Shown one piece after another: positions 49,796 through 64,000 of a stretch of 64,000 nt of DNA. Below the pieces are notes generated by a model. It searched no databases and was not told the DNA's origin. It worked only from the letters and a program-made list of their open reading frames with translations. The stretch covers positions 1-64,000 of the forward strand of contig JHWW01000013.1 in the NCBI GenBank assembly GCA_000621985.1. Reading direction: 5' to 3'. Made by a program: the position numbers and the translations under genes. This DNA comes from Lachnospiraceae bacterium V9D3004. Its GTDB lineage: Bacteria; Bacillota; Clostridia; Lachnospirales; Lachnospiraceae. Each line of letters starts with the position of its first letter. The stretch's first letter is position 1.

Positions 49796-52180
49796 TTATT
49801 GTATCCTTATATCAGTCAGTGCCACCTGATCTCCGGTCAGAGCCACATATACCTTATCTTCGTACTCTTCGTTGATCGTAGTGGTACATTCAATATTGAT
49901 TCCAAGATTCTCTGTCTTTAATATGATGCGGTTACCTTTCTTTTCCAAGGTTATCTCGCATTCCATTCCTTTCTTGCAGGCTTCCTTCCAGGCATCCCAT
50001 CCCGGGAACTCTTCCTTCTTTTTTAGCCTGAACCTGTTTGCGGCATATTCATCCGTTCCCGTACTCTCACCATTTAACTTGGTAAGTGAATATTCACGGT
50101 AATTATCTCCTTCCACAGTACCGTCATCGGAATAGAATAACAACACATAGGGACAATGCCAGATAAGATCTGCCGACGGAAGACTCATTGTATTGAAAAT
50201 AAGTTTCAAACGGTTACCTATCTCAATTCCTTCCGTGTATGCTGAACGTGTTCTGTCTATCTGGACATTCTTAACGTCCGATTCCATATGATCGATATAA
50301 CTGATCTCGTCAACAATTCTTGGAATGTCTCCCAAATGCACTGTTTTTCCGGTAGGTTTGACTGTTATATCCTTAAGCATGCCATGCTCACCCGTAAGAC
50401 CGATATAAGTAGTAGTTGATCTGTCGGGAAGAGCGATTATGATCTCTTTTACATACTCCGGACCATTCATTTCAAGTCTGATATGATCCTCGAATTTGGC
50501 TGCGATTATTTCATATTCTGCTTTATTTTCTCCGGAATTGTTACCTGAATTCCCATCATTATCCTTTTTAGTAATATTTACCAATTCAATTTTCCTGGCT
50601 CCGGATGATATCATATGATCGTTGAACCATATCTCTCCGTGTTCAAAGTAGTGATATTCTTTTATTGTCTTTTCATCTCTGTGATTACGCCTATCAAATG
50701 AATCGAATATTATTATGGCAGGTTCACTAAAACCGTTATCTGCGTCCGGTGTGGGGATAAATTCGAACCGAATACTCTTCTCATTACTCTCTATACGTAT
50801 CCCGCCTGATATATGTTCTCTGAATTCGCCGCAGGACAGTTCTTTTTCAACATCATCGATGTCTTTATTCTTTCCTTTGTTTTCTTCATCGATAATACCT
50901 ACCATGATCCCTGCATATTCGGGATCGAATTCCACACCCGCACCTTTAACGAATCTCTCTCTTGCCACAAAATATGGTCTGGCGTCACGATACCTTTTTT
51001 TGGTAGTCATCGTGACATATGCATCCGCGATCGCTGTAATACGGGCCATCTCAGGTATATCAGCTCCCGATAACCCTTCCGGATAACCTGTTCCGTTGTA
51101 CCTCTCATGACTGTACTGGGCTCCCTGACTGAGATAAGGATATTCTGTAATACTTGATAATATCTCCTTACCTATGATTGGTTTCTTTCTTATGGCCTCA
51201 TAATCCCATTTGTCGGGATCTGCCTCATTCTTTATTACGCTGTCGGGAATTCCTATCATTCCGACATCATGAAGAAGTGCCGTATAATATACCTTCTCAC
51301 AATAATCCTCGTCTTTTCCGGAAAGCTTCGCGATCTTTTCGGCATATTCGGCAACTCTGATCGCATTTCCTTTTACAAAATCATCCTTATTCTCAACTGC
51401 GGACACGAAAGCCGTGGCAGTCTGGTCGAACAGCCTCTGCATACGGACTTTCTCACCCTGCATATTCTGTATCTCGATCTCATGGGCGTGTTCGACAGTG
51501 TTATTGATATCAAGATATGCGAACAGATACAGAGATATCGACACAGCAACCATGGACATATTCACAATTGATATGCCGTACGTAAATATCTGCAGGATAC
51601 CGCATATTATCGGAACGAATATATACAGAACGATGGAGATATATATAAGTTTGCTGAACATTTTCCGGTACTTTCTTATAATGGTATATTGTAAGATCGG
51701 ACATACGATGGGAACAATATAAGCTATGAGGAATCCCGATCCTCTGTGGTACACATTATTATCATCAAAATAGTAATACATATTCGTGTAAGCAGATATA
51801 ATTGCCAATGCCATTCCAAGTGCAGACAGACTTCCGACCAGCTTTATCCTCATAGGAAGCGTAGTCGTGTCATTTCCTGCCCCGATCAGATCTTTAAGAT
51901 ACCGGTTGAACACAAAAACTATGGCGGATGTCAGGAAGAATACCATGAAGTTGCTTACTCTGACCATTATATATCCTGACTGTCCCGTATTGCCGGCATA
52001 TATGTATGCAAGCCTGTCAAAAAACAGCAAAAAGAAAGCAACTATCTCCATATAGATAAGTACCTTTTTTCTGCTCTTGGACATGAATCTCGTGATAGCC
52101 AGCAAAAATACAAGTATACCGCAGGCGCCGCATAACAAAAGCATTATATTCAACTGATGCTCTCTGATAAGCTCAAACAT
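49796..52180 (-). CDS. membrane HD-GYP protein with long C-terminal domain
   Basis: A 794-residue protein. The N-terminal part (about 1-225) has seven or so helices like 7TM sensor or MASE-type regions. A short coiled region follows, then an HD-GYP domain (about 250-420) with LLHDVGMIGIP and SHERYNGTGYP. The usual HDxGK motif has Met instead of Lys, and HHE has become SHE, so metal binding and c-di-GMP cleavage may be altered. About 350 C-terminal residues are mostly beta with no family I recognise. AAGGAG precedes the ATG. It is in an operon with the hybrid kinase (12 bases) and another HD-GYP protein. Confidence 0.8.
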   Translation of the reverse strand: MFELIREHQLNIMLLLCGACGILVFLLAITRFMSKSRKKVLIYMEIVAFFLLFFDRLAYIYAGNTGQSGYIMVRVSNFMVFFLTSAIVFVFNRYLKDLIGAGNDTTTLPMRIKLVGSLSALGMALAIISAYTNMYYYFDDNNVYHRGSGFLIAYIVPIVCPILQYTIIRKYRKMFSKLIYISIVLYIFVPIICGILQIFTYGISIVNMSMVAVSISLYLFAYLDINNTVEHAHEIEIQNMQGEKVRMQRLFDQTATAFVSAVENKDDFVKGNAIRVAEYAEKIAKLSGKDEDYCEKVYYTALLHDVGMIGIPDSVIKNEADPDKWDYEAIRKKPIIGKEILSSITEYPYLSQGAQYSHERYNGTGYPEGLSGADIPEMARITAIADAYVTMTTKKRYRDARPYFVARERFVKGAGVEFDPEYAGIMVGIIDEENKGKNKDIDDVEKELSCGEFREHISGGIRIESNEKSIRFEFIPTPDADNGFSEPAIIIFDSFDRRNHRDEKTIKEYHYFEHGEIWFNDHMISSGARKIELVNITKKDNDGNSGNNSGENKAEYEIIAAKFEDHIRLEMNGPEYVKEIIIALPDRSTTTYIGLTGEHGMLKDITVKPTGKTVHLGDIPRIVDEISYIDHMESDVKNVQIDRTRSAYTEGIEIGNRLKLIFNTMSLPSADLIWHCPYVLLFYSDDGTVEGDNYREYSLTKLNGESTGTDEYAANRFRLKKKEEFPGWDAWKEACKKGMECEITLEKKGNRIILKTENLGINIECTTTINEEYEDKVYVALTGDQVALTDIRIQ

Positions 52181-52192
52181 AGGCCAATCTCC

Positions 52193-54127
52193 TTACTGTT
52201 TTATCAATTCTTCCATGCCGTCCCAATCAAATGATCTGAGCATACAATCTATCTCTTTCATCTTCCTGTCGTCTTCTTTCGGAAGAGCATATTCTTTTAA
52301 CTGTTCAAGTATCATCTCCACCGCATCATAATCCATCATAGGAATTACTTCAGCAAGTGCACTGTAGGCTTCTTTAAGTTTATCTTCGGGGATCATTTCC
52401 TTATCTTCCCCATCTTCTTTTACCTCGCGGAGACGACTGAGTTTTTCTTTATATGCCTCATATTCCGATAAGAGTTTATCGTGATTCTCATCTATATAAT
52501 CCTTATCTTCCCTGTTTCCTGCATCCTCAAGTGAGGCAGCAAGTTTTGAAAGCTCCATGGCACCGATGATCCTTGCGGAACTCTTCAATGCATGAACCTT
52601 GATCGTATATAATCTTATATTGTCACTCTCATAGGAATTCCTTATAACATTCGCGTTACTGTCAATAGTGTCAAGGAAGAGATTGAGTGAGAATATATAA
52701 TTACCGATTCCGCCGGAATTACTTATTCCCTCATCAACGGACAATCCTTCAGTCTCATATATCCAATGCATATCCGGTGGTATCTCGGTAAGATCTTCCA
52801 CTGCATCTTCTTCTGTCGGTTTTTTAACCATATTTTCGGGGAGATACTTAAGTATTGCCTTCTCAAGAGCAAGACTGTCTACAGGTTTTGCAAGATAACC
52901 GTTGAATCCTTTTGATACGTAATATTCTTCTCCCAATGCGGAATTCGCGGTAAGTACGTATACCGGAAGATCCGGATCGCTCTCACGTATCTTTGCGATC
53001 GTCTCTATTCCATCCATGCCGGGCATCATATGATCAAGAAGCACCACGTTGAATTTTGTCTCTTTTATCTTCTCAAGACATTCTTCTCCGCTGCTTGCAG
53101 TAGTAACGAATACTCTCGTTGCCTTTAACAGACCCTTGATAACATTAAGATTCATCGGAGTATCGTCAACAACAAGGATATCCGCATCCGGAGCAACAAA
53201 CTGCGGCACGTACGGTCCGTTTGCCGCATTTTCATCATGTTCTCTGAATACGCCTATCGGTGTAGCGTCAATGATCTTTTGTGTCACTGTCAATATGAAT
53301 TCTGTTCCTTTTCCATACTCACTCTCAAAAGTGATATCACCCCCAAGAAGCTCAGTGAATCTCCTCGATATATCAAGTCCGAGTCCTGTTCCCTGTATAC
53401 CGCTGTTTTTCTGCTCATCAAGGCGTTCGTATGCCATGAAGAGTTTGTCTTTATCTTCTTCCTTAACGCCTATGCCGGTATCTTTTACATTGATGCGGAT
53501 CTTACATTCGTCATCCTCTCTTTCATCCATTGACACATACAGCGCAAATCCGCCTTTTTCGGTATATTTTAATGCATTCGTAAGAAGATTCAACACGATC
53601 TGCTTGATCTTTCCCGCATCGCCGTACAGACGTTTCGGCAGCAGTTCGTCAATAACCACTTCGAATACAAGCTCTTTTTCGGTACTCCTCATTCTTATCA
53701 TGGATACGATGGATCTTAACACATCCTGCACATCATATTCCTGTTCCACAAGATGCATCTTTCCGGATTCGATCTTTGACATGTCAAGTACATCGTTGAT
53801 CAGAGAAAGAAGCGATTCGGTTGCATTTCTGATATCGAAAGCATAATTCATCATCGACATAAAATATTCCTTGGGAACGCCGGTTGGATCCTCTCTCATG
53901 ACCATTTCGTTCATTCCCATTATTGTATTGATGGGCGTACGTATCTCATGAGATATGTTGGCTAAGAATCTCGATTTTGCAGTATTGGCACGTTCGGCCT
54001 CTTCCTTTGCCATTCTGATCTCTTCGTACTGCTTATTAATGGTCAGCTTCATGATACGCCAGACAATAATGCCTGTGATCATCATGAGGATCAAAGCCGC
54101 AATTATATTAATAAGGATATCTGACAT
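52193..54127 (-). CDS. hybrid sensor histidine kinase with receiver and HPt
   Basis: A 644-residue membrane kinase. One N-terminal helix (about 5-25), coiled linker, HisKA (about 50-115; ANISHEIRTPINTI, His about 60), HATPase (about 165-285; NLLTNALKYTEKGG), receiver (about 305-425; DD, LLDHMMPG, K) and HPt (about 455-560; HALKSSARIIG). A complete internal phosphorelay with no DNA-binding output. It is likely to pass phosphate to a partner outside the window. Flanked by two HD-GYP genes in the same direction, which suggests c-di-GMP-linked control. AAGGAGG precedes the ATG. Confidence 0.85.
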   Translation of the reverse strand: MSDILINIIAALILMMITGIIVWRIMKLTINKQYEEIRMAKEEAERANTAKSRFLANISHEIRTPINTIMGMNEMVMREDPTGVPKEYFMSMMNYAFDIRNATESLLSLINDVLDMSKIESGKMHLVEQEYDVQDVLRSIVSMIRMRSTEKELVFEVVIDELLPKRLYGDAGKIKQIVLNLLTNALKYTEKGGFALYVSMDEREDDECKIRINVKDTGIGVKEEDKDKLFMAYERLDEQKNSGIQGTGLGLDISRRFTELLGGDITFESEYGKGTEFILTVTQKIIDATPIGVFREHDENAANGPYVPQFVAPDADILVVDDTPMNLNVIKGLLKATRVFVTTASSGEECLEKIKETKFNVVLLDHMMPGMDGIETIAKIRESDPDLPVYVLTANSALGEEYYVSKGFNGYLAKPVDSLALEKAILKYLPENMVKKPTEEDAVEDLTEIPPDMHWIYETEGLSVDEGISNSGGIGNYIFSLNLFLDTIDSNANVIRNSYESDNIRLYTIKVHALKSSARIIGAMELSKLAASLEDAGNREDKDYIDENHDKLLSEYEAYKEKLSRLREVKEDGEDKEMIPEDKLKEAYSALAEVIPMMDYDAVEMILEQLKEYALPKEDDRKMKEIDCMLRSFDWDGMEELIKQ

Positions 54128-54139
54128 GACAACCTCCTT

Positions 54140-56278
54140 TTACCGCTCCCTGTTATACTTTCTTAAGATAACCTTAACTTCGGGCAGAGCCTCCAAGAAT
54201 ACTTCCACACATTTCGGATCAAACTGGGTACCTTTTCCCTGCTCTATTATCTTAACGGCTTCATCGAGTGAATATGCCGGTTTATAAACACGCGCCGACG
54301 TAAGCGCATCAAATACATCCGCAACGGCCATTATTCGTGCCGATAACGGAATGACTTCACCGTGAAGCTCTTCGGGATATCCTTTTCCGTCCCAGCGTTC
54401 ATGGTGATAAGCTGCCATATTTCTTGCTTCCTTAAGATAATTCTCTCCTTCCATCGTGCTGATGGCATCTTCTATGATCTTCTTGCCCAATGTGGTATGT
54501 GTCTTCATGATCTCATATTCTTCCGGCGATAATCTCTCAGGTTTGTTAAGAACGCCGTCGGAAATATTGATCTTACCCACATCATGAAGCGGTGATGATC
54601 TTATAACGTCGGATATGAACTTTGGAGTGATCTTCTCGGCATAATATCCTTTTTTCTTCAATCCCTCCACTATGAGCTTCACATATGCCGATGTTTTCTG
54701 AATATGAGCACCGGTATCCGAATCCCGGTTTTCCACCATGTCCGCCATCGTTATGATAAGACCGTCCTGCATCTTTGCGGTTGAATTGGATAATTGAGTT
54801 ATACTCCTTGTCTGTTCGGCCTGATTTGTTGTCATACGACATATTGAATTATATAATCGTTCGATCTCATCTCCCGTATGGATATTAAGGCCTCTGAGCC
54901 CCTTGACATATTCATCCAGATGTTCCTGTGAATCTCCGATATGGTGTGAGAAATCATCCACATACATTGTCATTGACCTTACCGGATATATGATATGATA
55001 ATCTGTCATCCATACGATAAATGTACACAACAGAACAAAGAATCCAAAAAATACCGAGATCATCTCAACTACGAAACTGTGATCAAGATCGATAAGCCGT
55101 TGAACATCAACATCTGCGATGGCATAGCAGGTACATTTTCCTTTTGAATCGTATACCGGATAAGCAGCCGTAAGCAAATGACCGTATTCGTCATCGGTAA
55201 TTATCGGCTCAACTTCTTCTCCCGCAAGTAACTTGGAAATAAACGGAGTAAATCCCTCATCAAAAGGTATTACTTCTCCAATATCATCCGCCGGAGTGTC
55301 TTCGGTATCTATATCAAATACAACATGGAATCCGTCTTCTTCCATCCTGTATACATACAGATACGCTATCTCCGGTGAACTGAACAGAATATCTTTAAGG
55401 CGCTTTTCGGTTTCATAGTAATCCTCTTCTTTTCCTTCATTTTTCAGATATTCATCTACCCTGTTACCATTTATCATTGTTGAAGCTAACTTTGCAGTTC
55501 CCATTGCCATGGCCGTATGTTCATTTACAAGAGATTTGTGATATGTTCTTGCGCTGATAACCGTTCCCACAACGGCAACGATAGTAAGTGAGATCATAAG
55601 AACGAGAAGCATCTTGATACGCATGGATACGACGCGGACATTTGACTTCTCTTTATGGACCATCTTATCAATGTCCTCAGGTGTCTGCATCCACATATTA
55701 AACTTAAAATATCTGTATAACCTTTTCGGCACAATATGTAATATACCTAAAGCAATAGTGGAAGTGACTGCCTTATCGGGCAGATCTGTTATAATACTTG
55801 CAAGAATGTAGGACATATACCTGTTAAATATCCCGGTCCTGTATATCGCTGCACTCAGAGATTCACTGTCAAATGTAATACCATCAATAAACATCGGGAT
55901 CAGCGCTCCGATACCTCCGCCTATTAACGTAAAAACAATGATCGCAACCGGAAATCCCCATTTATGTTTTAATATTCCCTTACTTGCAAGATATGTCGCC
56001 GATAAAGCGATCAATATATTAATGATCCCGTAATATAATGATGCGGGTACGATCATACTCTTAACGATATAGGTTGCAAAACCCACGGCAACACCGGGAA
56101 GATATCCGCCCATAACCGCAACGGCAACCGTGCCGGCCGTATCCAGGTACATCGGCCAGCCAAACACAGTCACCAGTTCGTTTAGCAGCATATTGATCAT
56201 AAAACCGCCAAGACATACTAACAAAGCGGTCATATTCTGTTTTTTAATGAAAAAATCAGGCGTTTTGTTTTTTTTCAT
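54140..56278 (-). CDS. HD-GYP protein with ECF-like membrane region and extracytoplasmic sensor
   Basis: A 712-residue protein. Residues about 15-195 form helices like ECF substrate-binding components. A second membrane pair brackets a Cache-like sensor region (about 245-385). A HAMP-like linker leads to an HD-GYP domain (about 515-705) with LHDVGKINIS and YHHERWDGKGYP, so all catalytic residues look intact. Expected reaction: c-di-GMP to GMP or pGpG. It overlaps in ribosome site with the stop of the upstream secreted-protein gene (GGGTGAGGTAA) and lies 12 bases upstream of the hybrid kinase. Confidence 0.85.
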   Translation of the reverse strand: MKKNKTPDFFIKKQNMTALLVCLGGFMINMLLNELVTVFGWPMYLDTAGTVAVAVMGGYLPGVAVGFATYIVKSMIVPASLYYGIINILIALSATYLASKGILKHKWGFPVAIIVFTLIGGGIGALIPMFIDGITFDSESLSAAIYRTGIFNRYMSYILASIITDLPDKAVTSTIALGILHIVPKRLYRYFKFNMWMQTPEDIDKMVHKEKSNVRVVSMRIKMLLVLMISLTIVAVVGTVISARTYHKSLVNEHTAMAMGTAKLASTMINGNRVDEYLKNEGKEEDYYETEKRLKDILFSSPEIAYLYVYRMEEDGFHVVFDIDTEDTPADDIGEVIPFDEGFTPFISKLLAGEEVEPIITDDEYGHLLTAAYPVYDSKGKCTCYAIADVDVQRLIDLDHSFVVEMISVFFGFFVLLCTFIVWMTDYHIIYPVRSMTMYVDDFSHHIGDSQEHLDEYVKGLRGLNIHTGDEIERLYNSICRMTTNQAEQTRSITQLSNSTAKMQDGLIITMADMVENRDSDTGAHIQKTSAYVKLIVEGLKKKGYYAEKITPKFISDVIRSSPLHDVGKINISDGVLNKPERLSPEEYEIMKTHTTLGKKIIEDAISTMEGENYLKEARNMAAYHHERWDGKGYPEELHGEVIPLSARIMAVADVFDALTSARVYKPAYSLDEAVKIIEQGKGTQFDPKCVEVFLEALPEVKVILRKYNRER

Positions 56279-57317: not shown

Positions 57318-58526
57318 TCACGTCTTCTTGAGGTTTCGCAGGATCCGCACTTCCCTTATTATATTGCCGCTTCTTAAGAAGATTCCCCTCAGAATTCGAA
57401 TCACCCAGACGAACGGAATAAGTACAGTGTACTTTGCGGGCGGATAAAACGGATATAACTCGTTCTTGCCGGGAAATGTCCGCTTTATACAATATCGTAA
57501 TCTCATACCGGCAGTAACTTTTCCATCTTCTCCGGCAAGATCCTTCATTCGGTTGGTGACCCTGTATTTCACTGTTCCGTACGTACCTGAAGTGAGTATA
57601 TATGTCAATTCGGATCTGTAGTCTTCAGGAAGAGCACGTAATTGTTTTATTGTATTATCCGGATCCGATAACAACGTTTCAGCAAGATATCTGATCTTCT
57701 TTTCAAATTCCGACAATCCAAGCTTCTCAAGTTCCGTGTCAATATAATCTCTGTCGGCATCCGCAAATACCCTGTTCATCACATATGTATCGGTAAGCGT
57801 ACGTATCCCCGTTCCGGAACCGGAATGGTGCTTATTCGCATGAGTGATCACATACACATAAAAGTCTTCATCCGAAAAATGATATCCATATCTTTTATCA
57901 TCATCAATAACTGCCCTGCTCCATACATCCCTGTAATAATCTGCCACATCATTTTCATTATCCGAATCTTCAAATAACTTCATGTGCATCTCAAAATTAT
58001 AGACAGGCTCCTTGTAATAGCAGTCATGCACGGCGCTTCTTCCTGTTTTGGCATCATAACCTTTTTCTACCATGAATGTTTTAAATTTCTTTCTGCATTC
58101 AGCCCCCGAATCATACAGAATATCATTATCAGCCATCTGTCTCATACCGTACTTCGGGTAGTATGTCTGCAATACCACGCCTTTCAAAGGAAGATAACGG
58201 ATCTTTTCTCTTTCCATAAATGAGATCATTTCTCCCCTCTCGGCATCAAACAGGATGCTCTTTCGGATTGCCTTATTCTTACCTGTTCTAAACCTGTCCG
58301 CCACGTCCGGAGCAATACCTTTGTATCCATTATTTTCCAGTGTAAATGCGATCAGCGATTCTATAGAATGCCTTTTGGCTACTGAATATAAAAGTCCGGA
58401 ATCCACTCCGGAATATATATCTGTATCGGGCAAGGCCTCATTAAGGGCACATGCCGCAAGGTACATAAGTATCTCTCCGACGCTTCCCGTCATCTCTTCC
58501 CTGGTGTGTTCTTTGTTGTTATTCAT
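57318..58526 (-). CDS. nucleotidyltransferase-fold protein (NTP_transf_5 type)
   Basis: A 402-residue protein with LPLKGVVLQTYYP, then RQMADNDILYD (D-x-D pair near 137-140) and a later FEMHMKLFED segment, matching the NTP_transf_5 family. Such proteins appear in lasso-peptide and capsule loci and are thought to modify a peptide or sugar by nucleotidyl transfer. It lies at the 3' end of a cluster with PqqD-like, HPr-kinase-like, S26 peptidase and ABC genes. A 307-base gap to the ABC gene holds a gene remnant (58565-58714). Confidence 0.75.
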   Translation of the reverse strand: MNNNKEHTREEMTGSVGEILMYLAACALNEALPDTDIYSGVDSGLLYSVAKRHSIESLIAFTLENNGYKGIAPDVADRFRTGKNKAIRKSILFDAERGEMISFMEREKIRYLPLKGVVLQTYYPKYGMRQMADNDILYDSGAECRKKFKTFMVEKGYDAKTGRSAVHDCYYKEPVYNFEMHMKLFEDSDNENDVADYYRDVWSRAVIDDDKRYGYHFSDEDFYVYVITHANKHHSGSGTGIRTLTDTYVMNRVFADADRDYIDTELEKLGLSEFEKKIRYLAETLLSDPDNTIKQLRALPEDYRSELTYILTSGTYGTVKYRVTNRMKDLAGEDGKVTAGMRLRYCIKRTFPGKNELYPFYPPAKYTVLIPFVWVIRILRGIFLRSGNIIREVRILRNLKKT

Positions 58527-58564
58527 ACATCTGTTATTATCCCTCCAAAGTGTCTAAGTCTTTA

Positions 58565-58714
58565 TTAAAAATCCAAACTATCTCTATTCAAAAGAAAACT
58601 CTTCATTCCCATGATCACATATCCTTCATCATTTCTCCATGGTTTTGAAGATCCATTTACAATTACGATTTTTTTAAAGGAATCGGGAATATTTCTAAAG
58701 CAAAAGTCAATCAT
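58565..58714 (-). pseudogene. probable remnant of a DUF4143-type ATPase tail
   Basis: A 49-codon open frame with FRNIPDSFKKIVIVNG, a DEGYVIMGM motif and FLLN near its end. This resembles the C-terminal end of AAA_14/DUF4143 ATPases, where a KKIVIV strand is followed by a G-I/Y-V-x-M-G-L-x-D-FLL block. A stop codon directly precedes the ATG and no ribosome site is seen. The surrounding gap (58527-58833) has no other gene. An independent small ORF is the alternative. Confidence 0.4.
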
Positions 58715-58789
58715 TTATTACCATTTTTTAAATCTATTTTTCTTTTGTTTTGTCGAGTTAAACCAAGTTAAAGACAACAGAAATTATTA

Positions 58790-58838
58790 AATGTATGTTC
58801 GTAAAAACACAGCAGTCACTTATCGAGTTGGTGCTACA
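58790..58838 (-). repeat. dispersed palindromic repeat, copy D (degenerate)
   Basis: TGTAGCACCAACTCGATAAG at the head, TACGAACATACATTT at the far end, matching the ends of the copy at 63144-63199 while the middle is diverged. The TAG in its head is the stop codon of the ABC exporter gene. Confidence 0.45.
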
Positions 58839-60537
58839 AAAAATGCACCTGCCTGTCACATACCGACAATGCCGCCGGTCTGTGAGTTACAATTATAACT
58901 GTCTTGTCAGTCATTGATTTAAGGTTCTTAAGCAGCCTTTCTTCCGTCTGTCCGTCGAGTGCGCTTGTTGCTTCATCAAGTAACAATACCGGACGATCCG
59001 AATACACTGCTCTTGCTATTGCTATTCTCTGCATCTGTCCTTCGGACAATCCCGCACCTTTTTCACCGAGGATAGTATCGAGTCCTTCGGGCAGCTCCTC
59101 TATGAATTCCGATGCACAGGCTATATCAAGAGCTTCTCCTACACTTAATTCTTCGCCACGCGCATCTTTTTTTTCTTCATTTTCTTTAGCGAAAGTAACG
59201 ATATCTCTTATACTTCCGCTCATGAGGTAATTTCCCTGGGGCACATATGCGAACAGCTTTCGATAAGACACGTCCAATGTGAATCTTCCCTGTTCAGTAT
59301 TTATATATCTCTCACCCGATGATAACGGATACAGACTCATAAGAATCTTTAACACCGTGCTCTTGCCGCATCCCGATTCCCCAGTGAATGCCACATATTC
59401 TCCATTTTTTACAGAGAGATCATAATTGTCGAATACATGTGTCTCGCCTTTTTCACCGTTCGTATATGAAAATGAGGCGCCGTTTAGTCCGAACTCCAAG
59501 AATCCGGAACCTACATACTCTATGTCTGCACGGTCACTTCCGGCCGGCCCTGTACACACACCGGCTTCGCCGTCCTCCGGGAATTCCTCCGCCTCCATAA
59601 GGCGCTCCGCGCTGGCTATCATGGCGTAATATTTTGGCAGGTAACCCGTAATATTCGCAAATGGTGATTGTATCTGTCCGATAAGCTGTATAAGAGCGAT
59701 GAGTGTACCGTAAGATACAGTACCATTCAATATTCCGAACGCACCGTATACGATGCCGAGAAGGTATGCGCCGTTCATCGCAGACGCGAAGCCGACATTG
59801 CATATATTCGAAAAATGATTCTTTCGTATTCTCGCCTTCTTATGCCTATCCATCCTGTAAGAAGCCTGCTCAACATCCTCTTCTTCCACAGAATAGCTTT
59901 TTATGATCATAAGACTCTCAAGATGCTCCTGAAGGAACACCCTCACTATTCCGTCAGCCTCCTGTACTTTCTTATGAAGAGACTTCAAACGCTTTCTGAA
60001 AATATAGGTCAGTACTACAAGTAACAATCCTCCGGGAATAAGAATTACCCAGAATAACGGCTCAATGACCAGTATCATTATCGCCGCACCGATCATCCTT
60101 GCAAGCATTTCTCCTAAACCGGGCAATATAGTGCTCATTCCCTCCGCGATCACTGCTGTATCCGACGTAAGCCTGTTGACCCATTCTCCGGAATGGACTT
60201 CTGACACAGATCCGTAATCCTTCGACAAAAGAGTCTCATATAACCTCTTCTTAAAAGCATTCTCATATCCGGCTCTTGAGTATTCCTGAAGAAAACGCAC
60301 TACGGCGCGCAGAGCGATCTGAACTGCAATTAGCAGGATAAGAAATAGAATGTTCCTTATCATTTCTTCCCTGTTTCGCGACACTGCGTAATCTATCACA
60401 TTGCGAAATAAAAGAGCATATAAAATACTGCTCATACCCAGGATTATCTGTACGAGCATTAAAGTAAGTATATGAATTCTTGTATTACCTAAGACCCTGT
60501 TAATATAACTGAGAGCTTTTTTATCTTTGTCCTTCAT
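58834..60537 (-). CDS. ABC exporter, fused permease-ATPase
   Basis: A 567-residue exporter half-transporter: six-helix ABC_membrane region (about 15-310) and ATPase (about 345-567) with Walker A GESGCGKST, signature LSEGQMQRIAIARA and Walker B VLLLDEATSALD. No peptidase C39 domain. Coded 4 bases after the S26 peptidase gene within the peptide-maturation cluster, so the matured peptide is its likely cargo. Its stop codon lies inside a dispersed repeat. Confidence 0.85.
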   Translation of the reverse strand: MKDKDKKALSYINRVLGNTRIHILTLMLVQIILGMSSILYALLFRNVIDYAVSRNREEMIRNILFLILLIAVQIALRAVVRFLQEYSRAGYENAFKKRLYETLLSKDYGSVSEVHSGEWVNRLTSDTAVIAEGMSTILPGLGEMLARMIGAAIMILVIEPLFWVILIPGGLLLVVLTYIFRKRLKSLHKKVQEADGIVRVFLQEHLESLMIIKSYSVEEEDVEQASYRMDRHKKARIRKNHFSNICNVGFASAMNGAYLLGIVYGAFGILNGTVSYGTLIALIQLIGQIQSPFANITGYLPKYYAMIASAERLMEAEEFPEDGEAGVCTGPAGSDRADIEYVGSGFLEFGLNGASFSYTNGEKGETHVFDNYDLSVKNGEYVAFTGESGCGKSTVLKILMSLYPLSSGERYINTEQGRFTLDVSYRKLFAYVPQGNYLMSGSIRDIVTFAKENEEKKDARGEELSVGEALDIACASEFIEELPEGLDTILGEKGAGLSEGQMQRIAIARAVYSDRPVLLLDEATSALDGQTEERLLKNLKSMTDKTVIIVTHRPAALSVCDRQVHFL

Positions 60538-60541
60538 TGAT

Positions 60542-61039
60542 CTACATTTTCCTATCGAATGTTCTCTTCATCACATGCTTCACCAGTAATATTCCTGCCC
60601 TGATGTAATACAGATCACACCAGAGATGTACATAACAACGGTAACGGATATCAGTAACCGGAATCTCTTTCCCGTTCCTTAAAACCGCAGTCAGCACACC
60701 GACAACATGCCTGTCATTTATACCGTATTCCCTATGCCTCCTGTTATCTCCGCATATTACATAATCCTCATCACGGACTTTGAGCACTCTGTGAAGCACA
60801 TATGCGTGCCCCCCGTCACGTTTGTATAAAGGGACATCATACTTCTTAAGCTTCTCTGTAAGGCTGTTATCAGAAAGCATCTCCCATTCTTTTGGCCTTT
60901 CTATCACAAGCAGATCTCTTCCCTGCTTTATGTACGGATTCATGCTGTCGCCGACACTTGTGTATATGACTTTGCCGTTTTTCATAAGCTCCGCTTCAAG
61001 ACCCGATCTTTTAATGTTTGACATCATCTCACTGCTCAT
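60542..61039 (-). CDS. S24/S26-type signal-peptidase-like protein
   Basis: A 165-residue protein with VGDSMNPYI (nucleophile Ser), YVLHRVL (His in place of the usual Lys, as in SipW/ER-type signal peptidases) and VICGDN. A hydrophobic segment occurs near the C terminus and none at the N terminus. It may cleave the leader of the peptide encoded at the start of the cluster. It overlaps the PqqD-like gene by 4 bases, so the two are coupled. Confidence 0.75.
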   Translation of the reverse strand: MSSEMMSNIKRSGLEAELMKNGKVIYTSVGDSMNPYIKQGRDLLVIERPKEWEMLSDNSLTEKLKKYDVPLYKRDGGHAYVLHRVLKVRDEDYVICGDNRRHREYGINDRHVVGVLTAVLRNGKEIPVTDIRYRCYVHLWCDLYYIRAGILLVKHVMKRTFDRKM

Positions 61040-61293
61040 TCCAAAGCACCAATCTTTTCGAGGTCATTTATCACTGTATCAACATCGCGTCTGATCACAT
61101 CCTCAGGTGCATCGTACCGTTCCTTAATAACTTCCACTATCTCATCCCTGCTTGTTTCATTTTTAAGCAGTTCAAGTATTACACCAAGTGTCTTATTGCC
61201 TTTTACTATCCCGTTAAATGATGCGCCGCCCGCAGCAACCATCAACACTTCATTATCTGAATTATGTAAAATGTATTCTTTTTTTAATTTCAT
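61036..61293 (-). CDS. PqqD-like leader-binding protein
   Basis: An 85-residue protein with a PqqD/RRE-like fold pattern: KEYILHNSDNEVLMV, GNKTLGVILELL and a C-terminal VINDLEKIGAL helix. PqqD-like proteins bind the leader of ribosomal peptide precursors and present it to a maturase. It overlaps the genes on both sides by 4 bases, so three proteins should be made together. Confidence 0.8.
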   Translation of the reverse strand: MKLKKEYILHNSDNEVLMVAAGGASFNGIVKGNKTLGVILELLKNETSRDEIVEVIKERYDAPEDVIRRDVDTVINDLEKIGALE

Positions 61294-62081
61294 GACTTGT
61301 TCCTTTCTTTCGCACCACTCATTACTTCATATGACATCCGTGCAGCATCCGGATCCATATTACATTCCATTCTGAACAACCCGACGCTTTCAGTAAGTGA
61401 ATCGATCAGTGACAGAGTTTTATGAAGCGATGCAGGCTCAAACGGACGATAGCTCTGTGCGATAATTTCCGGCATTGCTGTTTTTTTATCAATCTTAACG
61501 ATCCGATTCTCTTTGCCTCTTTCCAGTATACATACCGCCTTAACGGGTACACTGACAGGACTGCTCAACCGGTGCTTACCATCCCATGGAGTACCGTAAA
61601 CATATGCCAGGAATCCATTTTCACTACCGCATTTCTCTCCGGTTTTTTTTATTCTGATAAGGGGCTTATCGTCATTTACCATAACAGCTCTGTCTCCGAA
61701 TACCTGTCTCCAGAGCCCGGTATGGGTTGACTTTCCGGTGCCGCTTTTTGCTGTGAATATATACGCCTGTCCGTCTACCGCCACAGCTGACCCGTGAAAT
61801 AAAAATGTATCATGATCCGGCATTCTTTCCGCGATCTTACGATATACGGCCAGCGTTTCAAGGTACTCGCCCGAAAATTGTCTGACGGGATTACCCGCAG
61901 CCATATCTTCTTTTGCGAATCTTTCTCTTTCACATTCGATATCTTTCGGTGTTATTGTAATACTGATATCGGGTTCATTTTCCGCTTCCTGTTCATTTAC
62001 TGCATAATCCCTGCAATAGTCTTCGATATAAGGATACAACGTATCTGCGCAGATGATCCGATCAGCAAGTCTGATAAGCAT
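61290..62081 (-). CDS. HPr-kinase-like protein of a peptide cluster
   Basis: A 263-residue protein with Walker A TAKSGTGKST (about 110-119) after FLFHGSAV, then VNDDKPLIR and GTPWDGK motifs. This is the HprK-related kinase type found with PqqD proteins in lasso-peptide and similar loci, where one member phosphorylates a precursor Ser. The ATG at 62081 lies one base after the stop of the LRR membrane-protein gene with AAGAAGG upstream, so it is translationally coupled to it. Confidence 0.8.
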   Translation of the reverse strand: MLIRLADRIICADTLYPYIEDYCRDYAVNEQEAENEPDISITITPKDIECERERFAKEDMAAGNPVRQFSGEYLETLAVYRKIAERMPDHDTFLFHGSAVAVDGQAYIFTAKSGTGKSTHTGLWRQVFGDRAVMVNDDKPLIRIKKTGEKCGSENGFLAYVYGTPWDGKHRLSSPVSVPVKAVCILERGKENRIVKIDKKTAMPEIIAQSYRPFEPASLHKTLSLIDSLTESVGLFRMECNMDPDAARMSYEVMSGAKERNKS

Positions 62082-62082
62082 A

Positions 62083-63054
62083 TCAAGCCTTCTTTCTTCT
62101 GCGTAAGATTGTAAGATACAGAACCACACCTATCGCTAATATAACAATTACGATCACAACATATATAACGTAATTATGATCGGTGCTTTCATCCACAGAA
62201 CCTTCGTAGGCTGCGTTTACACTGTCTGAGTCTTCCGCTCCCGGGTTTTCTCCTTCAAAACTTCTGCCTTCAGAACTTCCATCTTCCGAACTTCCGGCTC
62301 CTGTCTTTCCTGTATTCGAACTTCCGTCTTCCAAACTTCCGGCACCTGTCTTTCCTGAATCGGTTCCTTTTCCGTTTTCCTCGTATCCGGAATCCCCGAG
62401 AGTATTGGCATTGCCGGCAGATTGGGAGCTGTCACCCTTCGAATCGTTAGCACCGGAAGTATCTTTCTTACCTCCGGAACTGTTAATACCGGAAGCATCT
62501 TTCTTGCCTCCGGAACTGTTATTACCGGAAGCATCTTTCTTGCCTCCGGAACTGTTATTACCGGAAGCATCTTTCTTGCCTCCGGAACCGTTATTACCGG
62601 AATCTTCTTTCTTACCCTCAGTGTCATTCTTGCCGGAATCATCTTTTTTATTTTCAGCAGAAGCATCATCCGGATATTCAACTGTCACATCTTTGTCAGC
62701 ATTTATCGTAATGCCAACGGTATGACTGATGATCTTCTTTAACGACGACGCGCCGGTAAATGAATCATCGTGAACCACCACAACCGTATCCGGTACGGTA
62801 ATCGTCTGAATGGAATTACAGCCGGCAAATGAATTGCTTTCTACTTCCGATACCGGTTTTCCTGATATTCCTGAAGGTATCTCAATATCAGTTTCTCTTC
62901 CAAGATAACCGCATATTGAGACATAACCATCATGTGAATGATAATAAAAATGTCCGAATGAGTATTTTGTATTATCCTCTGCTGCAAGCACGGTTGCGGA
63001 CGCAAGCAGGAATAATATAAAAGCAACAATTATTGTTTTACCATATTTTACCAT
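62083..63054 (-). CDS. LRR (BspA-like) membrane-anchored protein with repeat linker
   Basis: A 323-residue exported protein. Signal peptide (1-24), short LRR_5/BspA-like part (about 30-125; FAGCNSIQTITVPDTV, FTGASSLKKI), a hydrophilic linker with four GGKKDxSGxNSS units (about 145-215), Gly/Ser/Glu-rich stretch, one C-terminal helix (about 295-318) and a RRRKKA tail. It is fixed in the membrane with the LRR outside. It starts an operon with the peptide-maturation genes, stopping one base before the kinase ATG. The role is unclear; it could be a receptor or immunity-type protein. AAGGTGAT precedes the ATG. Confidence 0.75.
   Translation of the reverse strand: MVKYGKTIIVAFILFLLASATVLAAEDNTKYSFGHFYYHSHDGYVSICGYLGRETDIEIPSGISGKPVSEVESNSFAGCNSIQTITVPDTVVVVHDDSFTGASSLKKIISHTVGITINADKDVTVEYPDDASAENKKDDSGKNDTEGKKEDSGNNGSGGKKDASGNNSSGGKKDASGNNSSGGKKDASGINSSGGKKDTSGANDSKGDSSQSAGNANTLGDSGYEENGKGTDSGKTGAGSLEDGSSNTGKTGAGSSEDGSSEGRSFEGENPGAEDSDSVNAAYEGSVDESTDHNYVIYVVIVIVILAIGVVLYLTILRRRKKA
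62440..62600 (-). repeat. in-frame 36-bp tandem repeat
   Basis: Four to five nearly identical 36-base units encoding GGKKDASGNNSS-type segments in the LRR membrane protein. The opposite strand is open by chance. Confidence 0.8.
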
Positions 63055-63143
63055 ATAATCACCTTGTATTTTTTCCTTTAATGATGTATGAGATTATTTT
63101 CACACCTTCGAACATTCCGCACTACCGTGCTCCATGTTCCCCT

Positions 63144-63199
63144 CCCGGCAAATGTGTGTTCGTTAGGGGACGACACACGCTTGCCGGGTTAGTGCTACA
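63144..63199 (-). repeat. dispersed palindromic repeat, copy C (most complete)
   Basis: On the minus strand TGTAGCACTAACCCGGCAAG, then stem GTGTGT, loop CGTCCCCTAACGA, stem ACACAC and the outer arm TTGCCGGG, which pairs with CCCGGCAA. On the plus strand outer arms are 63144-63151 and 63181-63188, inner arms 63154-63159 and 63173-63178. It lies between the precursor peptide gene and the LRR gene of the peptide cluster. Confidence 0.65.
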
Positions 63200-63257
63200 G
63201 AATAGTATGGGAGGCAGGATCACCTCTGCCTCCCTGTTGAGATATTTATAATGATTC

Positions 63258-63383
63258 TTAATAATCTCCTCCACCGTTACCCACTTCCGGTGTCGGTATC
63301 GGATCATCGTTTGAAGTTGTTATTACATCTTCAACCTCAAATTCAATTATTTCTATCTCCATCTCTTGGTATTGCTCTTTCAT
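63258..63383 (-). CDS. candidate RiPP precursor peptide
   Basis: A 41-residue peptide. The N-terminal 24 residues form a leader-like acidic stretch (QEMEIEIIEFEVEDVITTS) and the rest is short and Pro/Gly-rich (DDPIPTPEVGNGGGDY). The EIIEFEVEDVITTS motif resembles small peptides next to PqqD, HPr-kinase-like and nucleotidyltransferase genes in Firmicutes; this is from memory and unchecked. A Ser or Tyr in the tail could be the kinase target. No strong ribosome site stands before the ATG at 63383 (an AAAGGA lies 12 bases upstream); an upstream in-frame ATG near 63405 is possible. It lies about 200 bases before the LRR gene, in the same direction as the whole cluster. Confidence 0.6.
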   Translation of the reverse strand: MKEQYQEMEIEIIEFEVEDVITTSNDDPIPTPEVGNGGGDY

Positions 63384-63432
63384 TTTGAACCTGATTCCTT
63401 TCATATTCATGTATTTGTTAAACATCCTTTAT

Positions 63433-63551: not shown

Positions 63552-64000
63552 TTAGAATGTCTGGGTTACCACATCTCCGTACATTGTATGCATATTACCG
63601 TCGGCATCAAGATATCTGAGATATGCTTTTACATACCATGTTTCTCCGGCATTTACATTGCCCTTTGTGAATGTATATCTGTATGCTGTTCCCGACCAGG
63701 CATTTCCAACTGCATAAGTGGCAGTATTCTCATTGAAATATGAATTGTTATGTCCTACGGTGTAATTGTTTGTTGCGATAACGCCGGCCTTGATGATCCT
63801 GCATCCTTCCGGAACGGTACTCATGGATACAAATATCAACTTATGATTATCCTCATCCTTAGACATGTTAATGATCTCTGTTGAACCTTCTGCCAGAACT
63901 TCAGAAGCATCATCAACATAAACTGCCGTAATACTTATATCCTTTTCAACATAAAAACTGTAATTTGTGTTGTAACCGAGTATCTTATCATTTGAATCAT
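63552..64000 (-). CDS. C-terminal part of a secreted surface protein (runs off right edge)
   Basis: The frame is open from the right edge to TAG-less stop TAA at 63552, about 148 residues. It begins with DKILGYNTNYSFYV and DISITAVYV, the pattern of InlB-like beta repeats in Lachnospiraceae surface proteins. A beta domain follows with YTFTKGNVNAGETWYVKAY and a QTF end. The start is outside the window; an internal ATG at 63866 is not a supported start. It is cotranscribed in direction with the peptide cluster. Confidence 0.65.
   Translation of the reverse strand, partial: DSNDKILGYNTNYSFYVEKDISITAVYVDDASEVLAEGSTEIINMSKDEDNHKLIFVSMSTVPEGCRIIKAGVIATNNYTVGHNNSYFNENTATYAVGNAWSGTAYRYTFTKGNVNAGETWYVKAYLRYLDADGNMHTMYGDVVTQTF

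Follow-up and report, generated by a model that had tools for sequence, protein, structure and literature searches.

The window analyzed here spans positions 1-64000 of contig JHWW01000013.1 (97,630 bases) from Lachnospiraceae bacterium V9D3004, whose genome is estimated to be 98.7% complete. It contains a predicted cluster for a ribosomally synthesized and post-translationally modified peptide (RiPP), which in our assessment is likely an operon of the Linear Polyphosphorylated Peptide (LPP) type, with the gene order A-[LRR]-K-B-S-D-N (LRR, leucine-rich repeat protein), belonging to a divergent clostridial branch and making a product that works with a secreted protein encoded upstream. The product is probably a small linear peptide phosphorylated on one fixed Ser. 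The biosynthetic part of this reading is well supported, and we hypothesize that the phosphopeptide docks on the C-terminal domain of its secreted partner. In its chemistry the system forms a new branch of the kind published in 2026, and the tie to secreted proteins is new as far as our literature searches reach.

LPPs were reported from Bacilli in May 2026 (PMC13381572). The Paenibacillus alginolyticus cluster lppA-K-B-S-D-N encodes a precursor, the HprK-like kinase LppK, the RiPP recognition element (RRE) LppB, the SipW-like peptidase LppS, the exporter LppD and the nucleoside triphosphate (NTP) transferase LppN. Deletion and mass spectrometry demonstrated that the Bacilli cluster makes a linear polyphosphorylated peptide, which is cut by the SipW-like peptidase. 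LppK adds several phosphates to core Ser3, and LppS cleaves via Ser/His/Asp (S29/H68/D93), aided by LppB, while deletion of lppN was without effect in a heterologous host. The biological role of LPPs is stated there as unknown. Within the literature searched, the phrase 'linear polyphosphorylated peptide' occurs only in PMC13381572, and the main text of that paper contains no Lachnospir*, Clostridi*, surface protein, lipoprotein, radical SAM (S-adenosylmethionine) or Ruminococc*.

The cluster in the window shares with that of P. alginolyticus the six functions in the same order, a Y-containing leader, a Ser at the leader/core junction, a SipW-like Ser/His/Asp leader peptidase, an HprK-like kinase, an NTP transferase and the lack of a cyclase. 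Ser32/His83/Asp98 of the S26 peptidase match S29/H68/D93 of LppS, and N33 and D70 of the window RRE protein bear the same numbers as the residues by which LppB holds the leader. Because genes and order are the same and the catalytic and RRE residues are kept, we take the cluster as a divergent LPP operon, and we infer its phosphorylation and cleavage chemistry by homology to PMC13381572. Unlike LPP of Bacilli, the system is clostridial, includes radical-SAM variants, and has many precursors that are dispersed and lie behind genes for secreted proteins.

All seven ORFs (open reading frames) that an earlier, sequence-only reading had named on one strand were confirmed on the minus strand, in the transcription order peptide, LRR/transmembrane (TM) protein, kinase, PqqD, S26, ATP-binding cassette (ABC) exporter and nucleotidyltransferase (NTase) (Table 1). 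Its count of four overlapping or nearly touching junctions also holds: the kinase and PqqD genes share 4 nt, as do those for PqqD and S26, S26 and ABC are 4 nt apart, and the LRR and kinase genes touch or overlap. Wider gaps separate ABC from NTase (307 nt) and the peptide from the LRR gene (204 nt). Genes were called by script from the longest start. For the kinase a start near 62081 is likelier, and for the precursor the ATG at 63383 (41 residues) agrees with the family, the longest ORF running from ATG 63425 (55 residues). Depending on this choice, the gap to the upstream gene of 1012 residues amounts to 126 nt for the start at 63425 or 168 nt for that at 63383.

Table 1 Genes of the probable LPP-type cluster and the adjoining secreted-protein gene, with coordinates in the window.
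Feature	Coordinates	Strand	Characteristics
LppA-like precursor, 41 residues	63258..63383	-	relatives: 97 distinct, Ser in 94
Secreted LRR/TM protein	62083..63054	-	signal-like N-terminus, BspA-type LRR fragment, Ser/Gly-rich linker, C-terminal TM, basic tail
HprK-like kinase (LppK-like)	61290..62129 (longest ORF)	-	P-loop SGTGKST, NDDKP
PqqD/RRE protein (LppB-like)	61036..61293	-	PF05402; N33, D70
S26 archaeal/SipW-type leader peptidase (LppS-like)	60542..61039	-	Ser32/His83/Asp98
MsbA-like ABC exporter (LppD-like)	58834..60537	-	ABC_membrane, ABC_tran
PF14907 nucleotidyltransferase (LppN-like)	57318..58526	-	KG...DxD
C-terminal part of 1012-residue secreted InlB-repeat protein, type-B Ig-like domain	63552..63998 (whole: contig 63552-66590)	-	extends beyond the window; proposed peptide partner

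The kinase gave no Pfam match up to an E value of 1 and showed ScmC/HprK_rel similarity under the NCBIfam cut-off; it is recognized as HprK-like by its SGTGKST P-loop and NDDKP motifs, which are kept in at least 90% of 101 kinases. Relatives were present in 70 of 299 genomes sampled from the family. A kinase search of wider genome contigs gave 360 candidate places, and the best 80 of these 360 were combined with the family-genome kinase loci, own locus included, into a set of 110 loci. By blast, S26 was found in 80 of them, PqqD in 83, ABC in 56 and NTase in 48, and 30/110 contain all five genes, many loci being short. Counts of 63/80 for S26, 66/80 for PqqD, 42/80 for NTase and 45/80 for ABC are lower bounds for the same reason. 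The recurrent ORF families f5-f7 were dropped, as their position opposite core genes makes them look antisense.

The PqqD protein matches PF05402 with 43.3 bits (cut-off 23.4) and is the one PqqD match of the genome; in the alignment N33 is present in 19/19 sequences and D70 in at least 90%. Used as a single sequence against the structure database, it gave no match. For the S26 peptidase, Pfam returned a match at chance level and TIGR02228 (signal peptidase I) one at E 2.4e-5, under the curated cut-off. Ser32/His83/Asp98 are invariant in 18/18 aligned sequences, and a PDB search yielded 6 matches, among them signal peptidase I and SEC11 chains (E 0.0012 and weaker). The NTase matches PF14907 with 137 bits. 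The best NCBIfam match of the ABC exporter, TIGR02204, is under its cut-off, and no peptidase domain is among its Pfam matches.

The window precursor consists of a leader (...YQEMEIEIIEFEVEDVITTS) followed by a variable acidic core, NDDPIPTPEVGNGGGDY. A hidden Markov model (HMM) built up from this peptide picked up 52 small ORFs, spread over 49 of the 110 loci; in these ORFs Tyr (48), Phe (49), Asp (50), Ile (49) and Ser (51) are conserved. In a check that the sequence-only reading had proposed, relatives of the peptide were seen to adjoin the same genes in many genomes, which makes the cluster more than a chance arrangement. In total, 97 distinct precursors were collected at an HMM threshold of E 0.05, at which a few false members are possible; the junction Ser is present in 94. 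The leader here reads roughly YxxxxMEVIxFxxEDVITTS, with the Pro often lost, compared to YxxPxVLxHQxIxFETxxS in LPP, and the consensus of the 52 precursors is without HQ. The tail behind the Ser has a median length of 15 residues (n = 97), as compared to a core of 45 residues in the LPP paper, is net negative in 92 precursors and contains no further Ser or Thr in 23. Cores are often 6-12 residues long, without a fixed first residue.

Six of the first 52 precursors come from radical-SAM loci, and 5/6 of their cores contain Cys, versus 0/46 of the others. The five Cys-core loci (L057, L089, L093, L098 and L113) have a radical-SAM-motif ORF, sometimes between precursor and kinase; in the exception without a Cys core, L100, the radical-SAM ORF is farther off and on the opposite strand. 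Among the later 45 precursors, L197 and L198 have Cys cores and a CNARCxYCY-motif ORF in the same stretch. As Cys cores accompany radical-SAM genes, the variable tail is indicated as the modified part. In the window, none of the seven cluster proteins is a radical SAM enzyme and the core is without Cys, which places it outside sactipeptide- or ranthipeptide-like clusters.

PqqD, an HprK kinase and a nucleotidyltransferase-like enzyme are also found in paeninodin-type lasso clusters (PMC13381572; PMC9266682), and the RRE, kinase and nucleotidyltransferase-like tailoring set is indeed what the cluster has in common with paeninodin and pseudomycoidin. We nevertheless give hardly any credence to a lasso cluster whose cyclase and B2 protease are encoded elsewhere in the genome. 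Unlike those clusters, the one described here is without a macrolactam cyclase, as LPP clusters are, and without a B2 transglutaminase-like protease, an S26 protease being present instead. The sequence-only reading had noted the lack of both in the window, and this extends to contig positions 64001-96999 (ORFs of at least 120 and at least 150 residues listed) and to the genome, in which PF13471 had no match and PF00733 matched a single fragment of 57 positions (23.7 bits, cut-off 21) on a different contig, too short for a cyclase domain. Likewise, 20 of 21 precursor-bearing genomes had no PF13471 match over the cut-off; two had weaker matches, on other contigs. Short cores without a fixed first residue further argue against a lasso product. 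With no cyclase or B2 gene in the neighbouring contig or the genome, a lasso peptide can be ruled out within the limits of the assembly. The earlier proposal of a cyclase-less RiPP, altered by phosphorylation or nucleotidylation and leader cleavage, instead gains support from the missing cyclase, the conservation of the peptide and the precedent of PMC13381572; the dispersal of precursors and their tie to large secreted proteins go beyond that proposal.

Trans-acting RiPP systems of the prochlorosin type combine a single maturation machinery with many dispersed precursors. Similarly, precursors of the present family are found away from the machinery. A profile of 39 precursors, compared with the 299 family genomes, gave 54 matches in 21 genomes (E <= 0.01), of which 18 have a kinase match within 12 kb and 36 are farther from any such match or on another contig, the latter count being swollen by fragmented assemblies in some genomes (G240, G051). 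One match, in G082, sits in a frame of 427 residues and is probably false. In the single-contig genome G282, 3 of 4 precursors are far from the kinase. Genome G259 has one kinase match, 11 profile matches and 12 precursor ORFs; no machinery was present in the stretches fetched around the 12, and each of them is located directly behind an ORF of 406-565 residues, 11 of these with a signal-like N-terminus. Precursor genomes coincide with close-kinase genomes in 19/21 cases (p = 3e-21). On the best reading, the machinery acts also in trans on dispersed precursors. The chemistry differs from that of the prochlorosin type, and dispersed precursors here tend to adjoin a secreted-protein gene. In the own genome, one of the precursor matches is a truncated remnant. 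This remnant (G000:C7 ~139735-139863; L203 7736-7864) reads FDTEDVITTSG..., has a leader without a start codon and directly follows the stop of a gene for a secreted xylanase-like protein of 591 residues (glycoside hydrolase family 10 by eye).

The upstream neighbours were scored for 90 precursors, 7 of the 97 being left out because they lie at contig edges. In 60/90 the nearest same-strand upstream ORF has at least 400 residues, and 49 of these 60 lie within 60 nt. Judged by a crude hydrophobicity window rather than a predictor, 45 of the 54 untruncated partners look secreted. Among 893 genes of the same loci, a conservative background that includes the partners themselves, 31% have at least 400 residues and 16% look secreted. 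A Pfam scan covered 55 of the 60 partners (L068 and the four longest were left out), with 25 of 52 families listed. Among the matches listed were Listeria-Bacteroides repeats (10 partners), InlB repeats (9), DUF285 (4) and some LRRs, and single cases were glycosyl hydrolase family 53, family 38 and a subtilase.

Two classes of C-terminal domain were distinguished among these partners. The final 130 residues of the 1012-residue partner in the window, representing type B, were modelled as a beta sandwich (predicted local distance difference test, pLDDT, 89.6), and the type-A domain as an immunoglobulin (Ig)-like sheet with two C-terminal helices (pLDDT 90.8). Matches to solved structures were weak and of a generic beta-sandwich/Ig-like kind, with top E values of 6e-3 (type A) and 9e-4 (type B), and no function was drawn from them. 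In the own genome the type-B domain is single and adjoins the precursor. Of 16 genomes with a type-A or type-B domain, 11 are also precursor genomes (p = 4e-11), a coincidence favoured by the fact that the profiles were made from precursor neighbours. In a comparison of 24 type-A with 11 type-B precursors, cores resembled each other more within a class than across classes (permutation p = 0.0004, and 0.0002 once leader similarity was regressed out), whereas leaders, a rough control for shared descent, did not (p = 0.80). L201 (25-member cluster) and L171-L174 and L182 (16-member cluster) were left out as iterative-profile drift. Gly-Gly occurs in 7/11 type-B versus 4/24 type-A cores (p = 0.015), and the window core has both Gly-Gly and an [LTIVM]P motif.

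These data also bear on the view that the product is simply a RiPP secreted as an antimicrobial or signal, with the large upstream protein as a chance neighbour or one at the regulon level (e.g., co-expressed surface genes). Cores are variable, the linkage to large proteins is not universal, and the patchy phyletic patterns of LPPs were read as typical for genes in biological conflicts (PMC13381572). We consider this view unlikely, given the arrangement of all 12 precursors in G259 with its one kinase match, the fact that the core, unlike the leader, follows the C-terminal class of the partner, and the lack of any dedicated-immunity-like family recurring in at least 6 loci.

For the LPP-type operon the following steps are proposed. 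RRE protein B would bind the leader Yxxxx[ML]E[VI][IV]xFxxEDVI, kinase K would phosphorylate the single conserved Ser at the leader/core junction, and the S26 peptidase S would cut near that Ser, with B assisting. A cut at DVI|TTS would put the Ser at +3, by analogy with FET|AQS in LPP; the exact site is a prediction. The ABC exporter D would then move the short acidic core out, and no ring would be formed. The NTase N may add a sugar or a nucleotide to the phosphate, a hexose being suggested by the case of pseudomycoidin (review PMC9266682). After export, the phosphopeptide would team up at the cell surface with the secreted product of the upstream gene, the C-terminal Ig-like domain of that protein being the most likely docking site.

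The interval between precursor and kinase often encodes a stalk protein that is secreted or anchored. The LRR protein of the window, which the sequence-only reading had regarded as coupled to the kinase, did not retain that role, its gene being one of several kinds in this position. It has an LRR_5 score of 25.3 bits, slightly under the Pfam cut-off of 27.7, and relatives in 6 loci, own locus counted. In L077 (GGAGxED), L189 (EYELPFIP) and L058 (DPF) the stalk C-terminus is closer to the core of its own locus than to those of all other loci, and at L186 DEDGWTxIIVKP is common to the precursor and a protein encoded upstream of it (by eye). The top-ranked echo, L173 (score 30), looks spurious and was set aside. 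An apparent stalk-precursor fusion is seen at L100:7128-7670, a lipoprotein-like ORF ending in a second precursor-like stretch (EEYTTPKIEVTEFDDEDVITTSNG...ELPIIPIR). In genome G211, type-A proteins carry acidic core-like tails in cis (L206, L207 and L211, e.g., ...DEDEKWGPLL and ...DEHDWGPVS). Other type-A genes of G211 are followed by divergent precursor-like peptides that the HMM missed (L204, L209).

The echoes, the fusion and the cis tails would suit a docking/release arrangement at the membrane, in which the stalk would anchor the secreted partner through a tip resembling the core, with the exported LPP as its competitor. They are confined to a minority of loci, the window not among them, and we judge this arrangement improbable: over all 41 candidates the tip echo was not significant (Kolmogorov-Smirnov p = 0.11), and the LRR protein of the window shows no core echo.

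Besides these two null results, several findings weigh against an LPP-type operon whose product is paired with the upstream protein. In a PDB profile search with the window RRE, the lasso proteins TbiB1 (E 7e-4) and TfuB1 (E 0.0016) outranked LppB (E 0.25), and PbaB1 (E 0.22) was level with LppB. The RRE-contacting Pro of LPP and lasso leaders is present in only 27/52 precursors, the window leader having Met there, and 9 of 28 close-kinase genomes are without a precursor match. The [LTIVM]P motif, in 18/24 type-A and 4/11 type-B cores, alone reaches p = 0.057, and the type-A member L010 has a Gly-rich, type-B-like core. Moreover, in 20 further stretches with a type-A or type-B domain, taken from seven genomes (five without precursor matches, two with them), a precursor-like peptide followed the domain in only 3 (L204, L209 and L223; by eye), while three others (L206, L207 and L211) are those with the cis tails. 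The idea that every such domain precedes a precursor therefore failed in most of these stretches, with no precursor behind the domain in L220 and L221 and no stop within the stretch in L210.

For the role of the LPP-type product, we tentatively propose surface assembly, a possibility we rate well short of probable. A central K-B-S-D-N factory would mature dispersed peptides, each a dedicated docking ligand for one large secreted adhesin or enzyme. The ligands would bear phosphate or glycan and bind the C-terminal Ig-like domain, and membrane stalks would show the same epitope at their tip. If true, LPPs would be protein-display tags rather than antibiotics, which would fit their capsule-locus position in Bacilli, and clostridia, many of the relatives being from gut or rumen genomes, would gain a new means of presenting or regulating large adhesins and carbohydrate-active enzymes. 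Precursor dispersal and the tracking of core and partner would give LPPs a concrete, testable role, a modified peptide paired with a surface protein, and precursors overlooked by cluster-restricted searches become visible.

A promoter scan stayed at chance level, and terminator-like sites numbered 8 versus 4.1 expected and were not used as evidence. Contig positions 64001-96999 encode surface proteins first and then housekeeping genes, including parA/parB-like, tRNA-modification, dnaA-, gyrB- and gyrA-like ORFs (names by eye). Beyond the cluster, at 49796-56278 of the window, lie three large ORFs resembling histidine-kinase/response-regulator and HD-domain signalling proteins.

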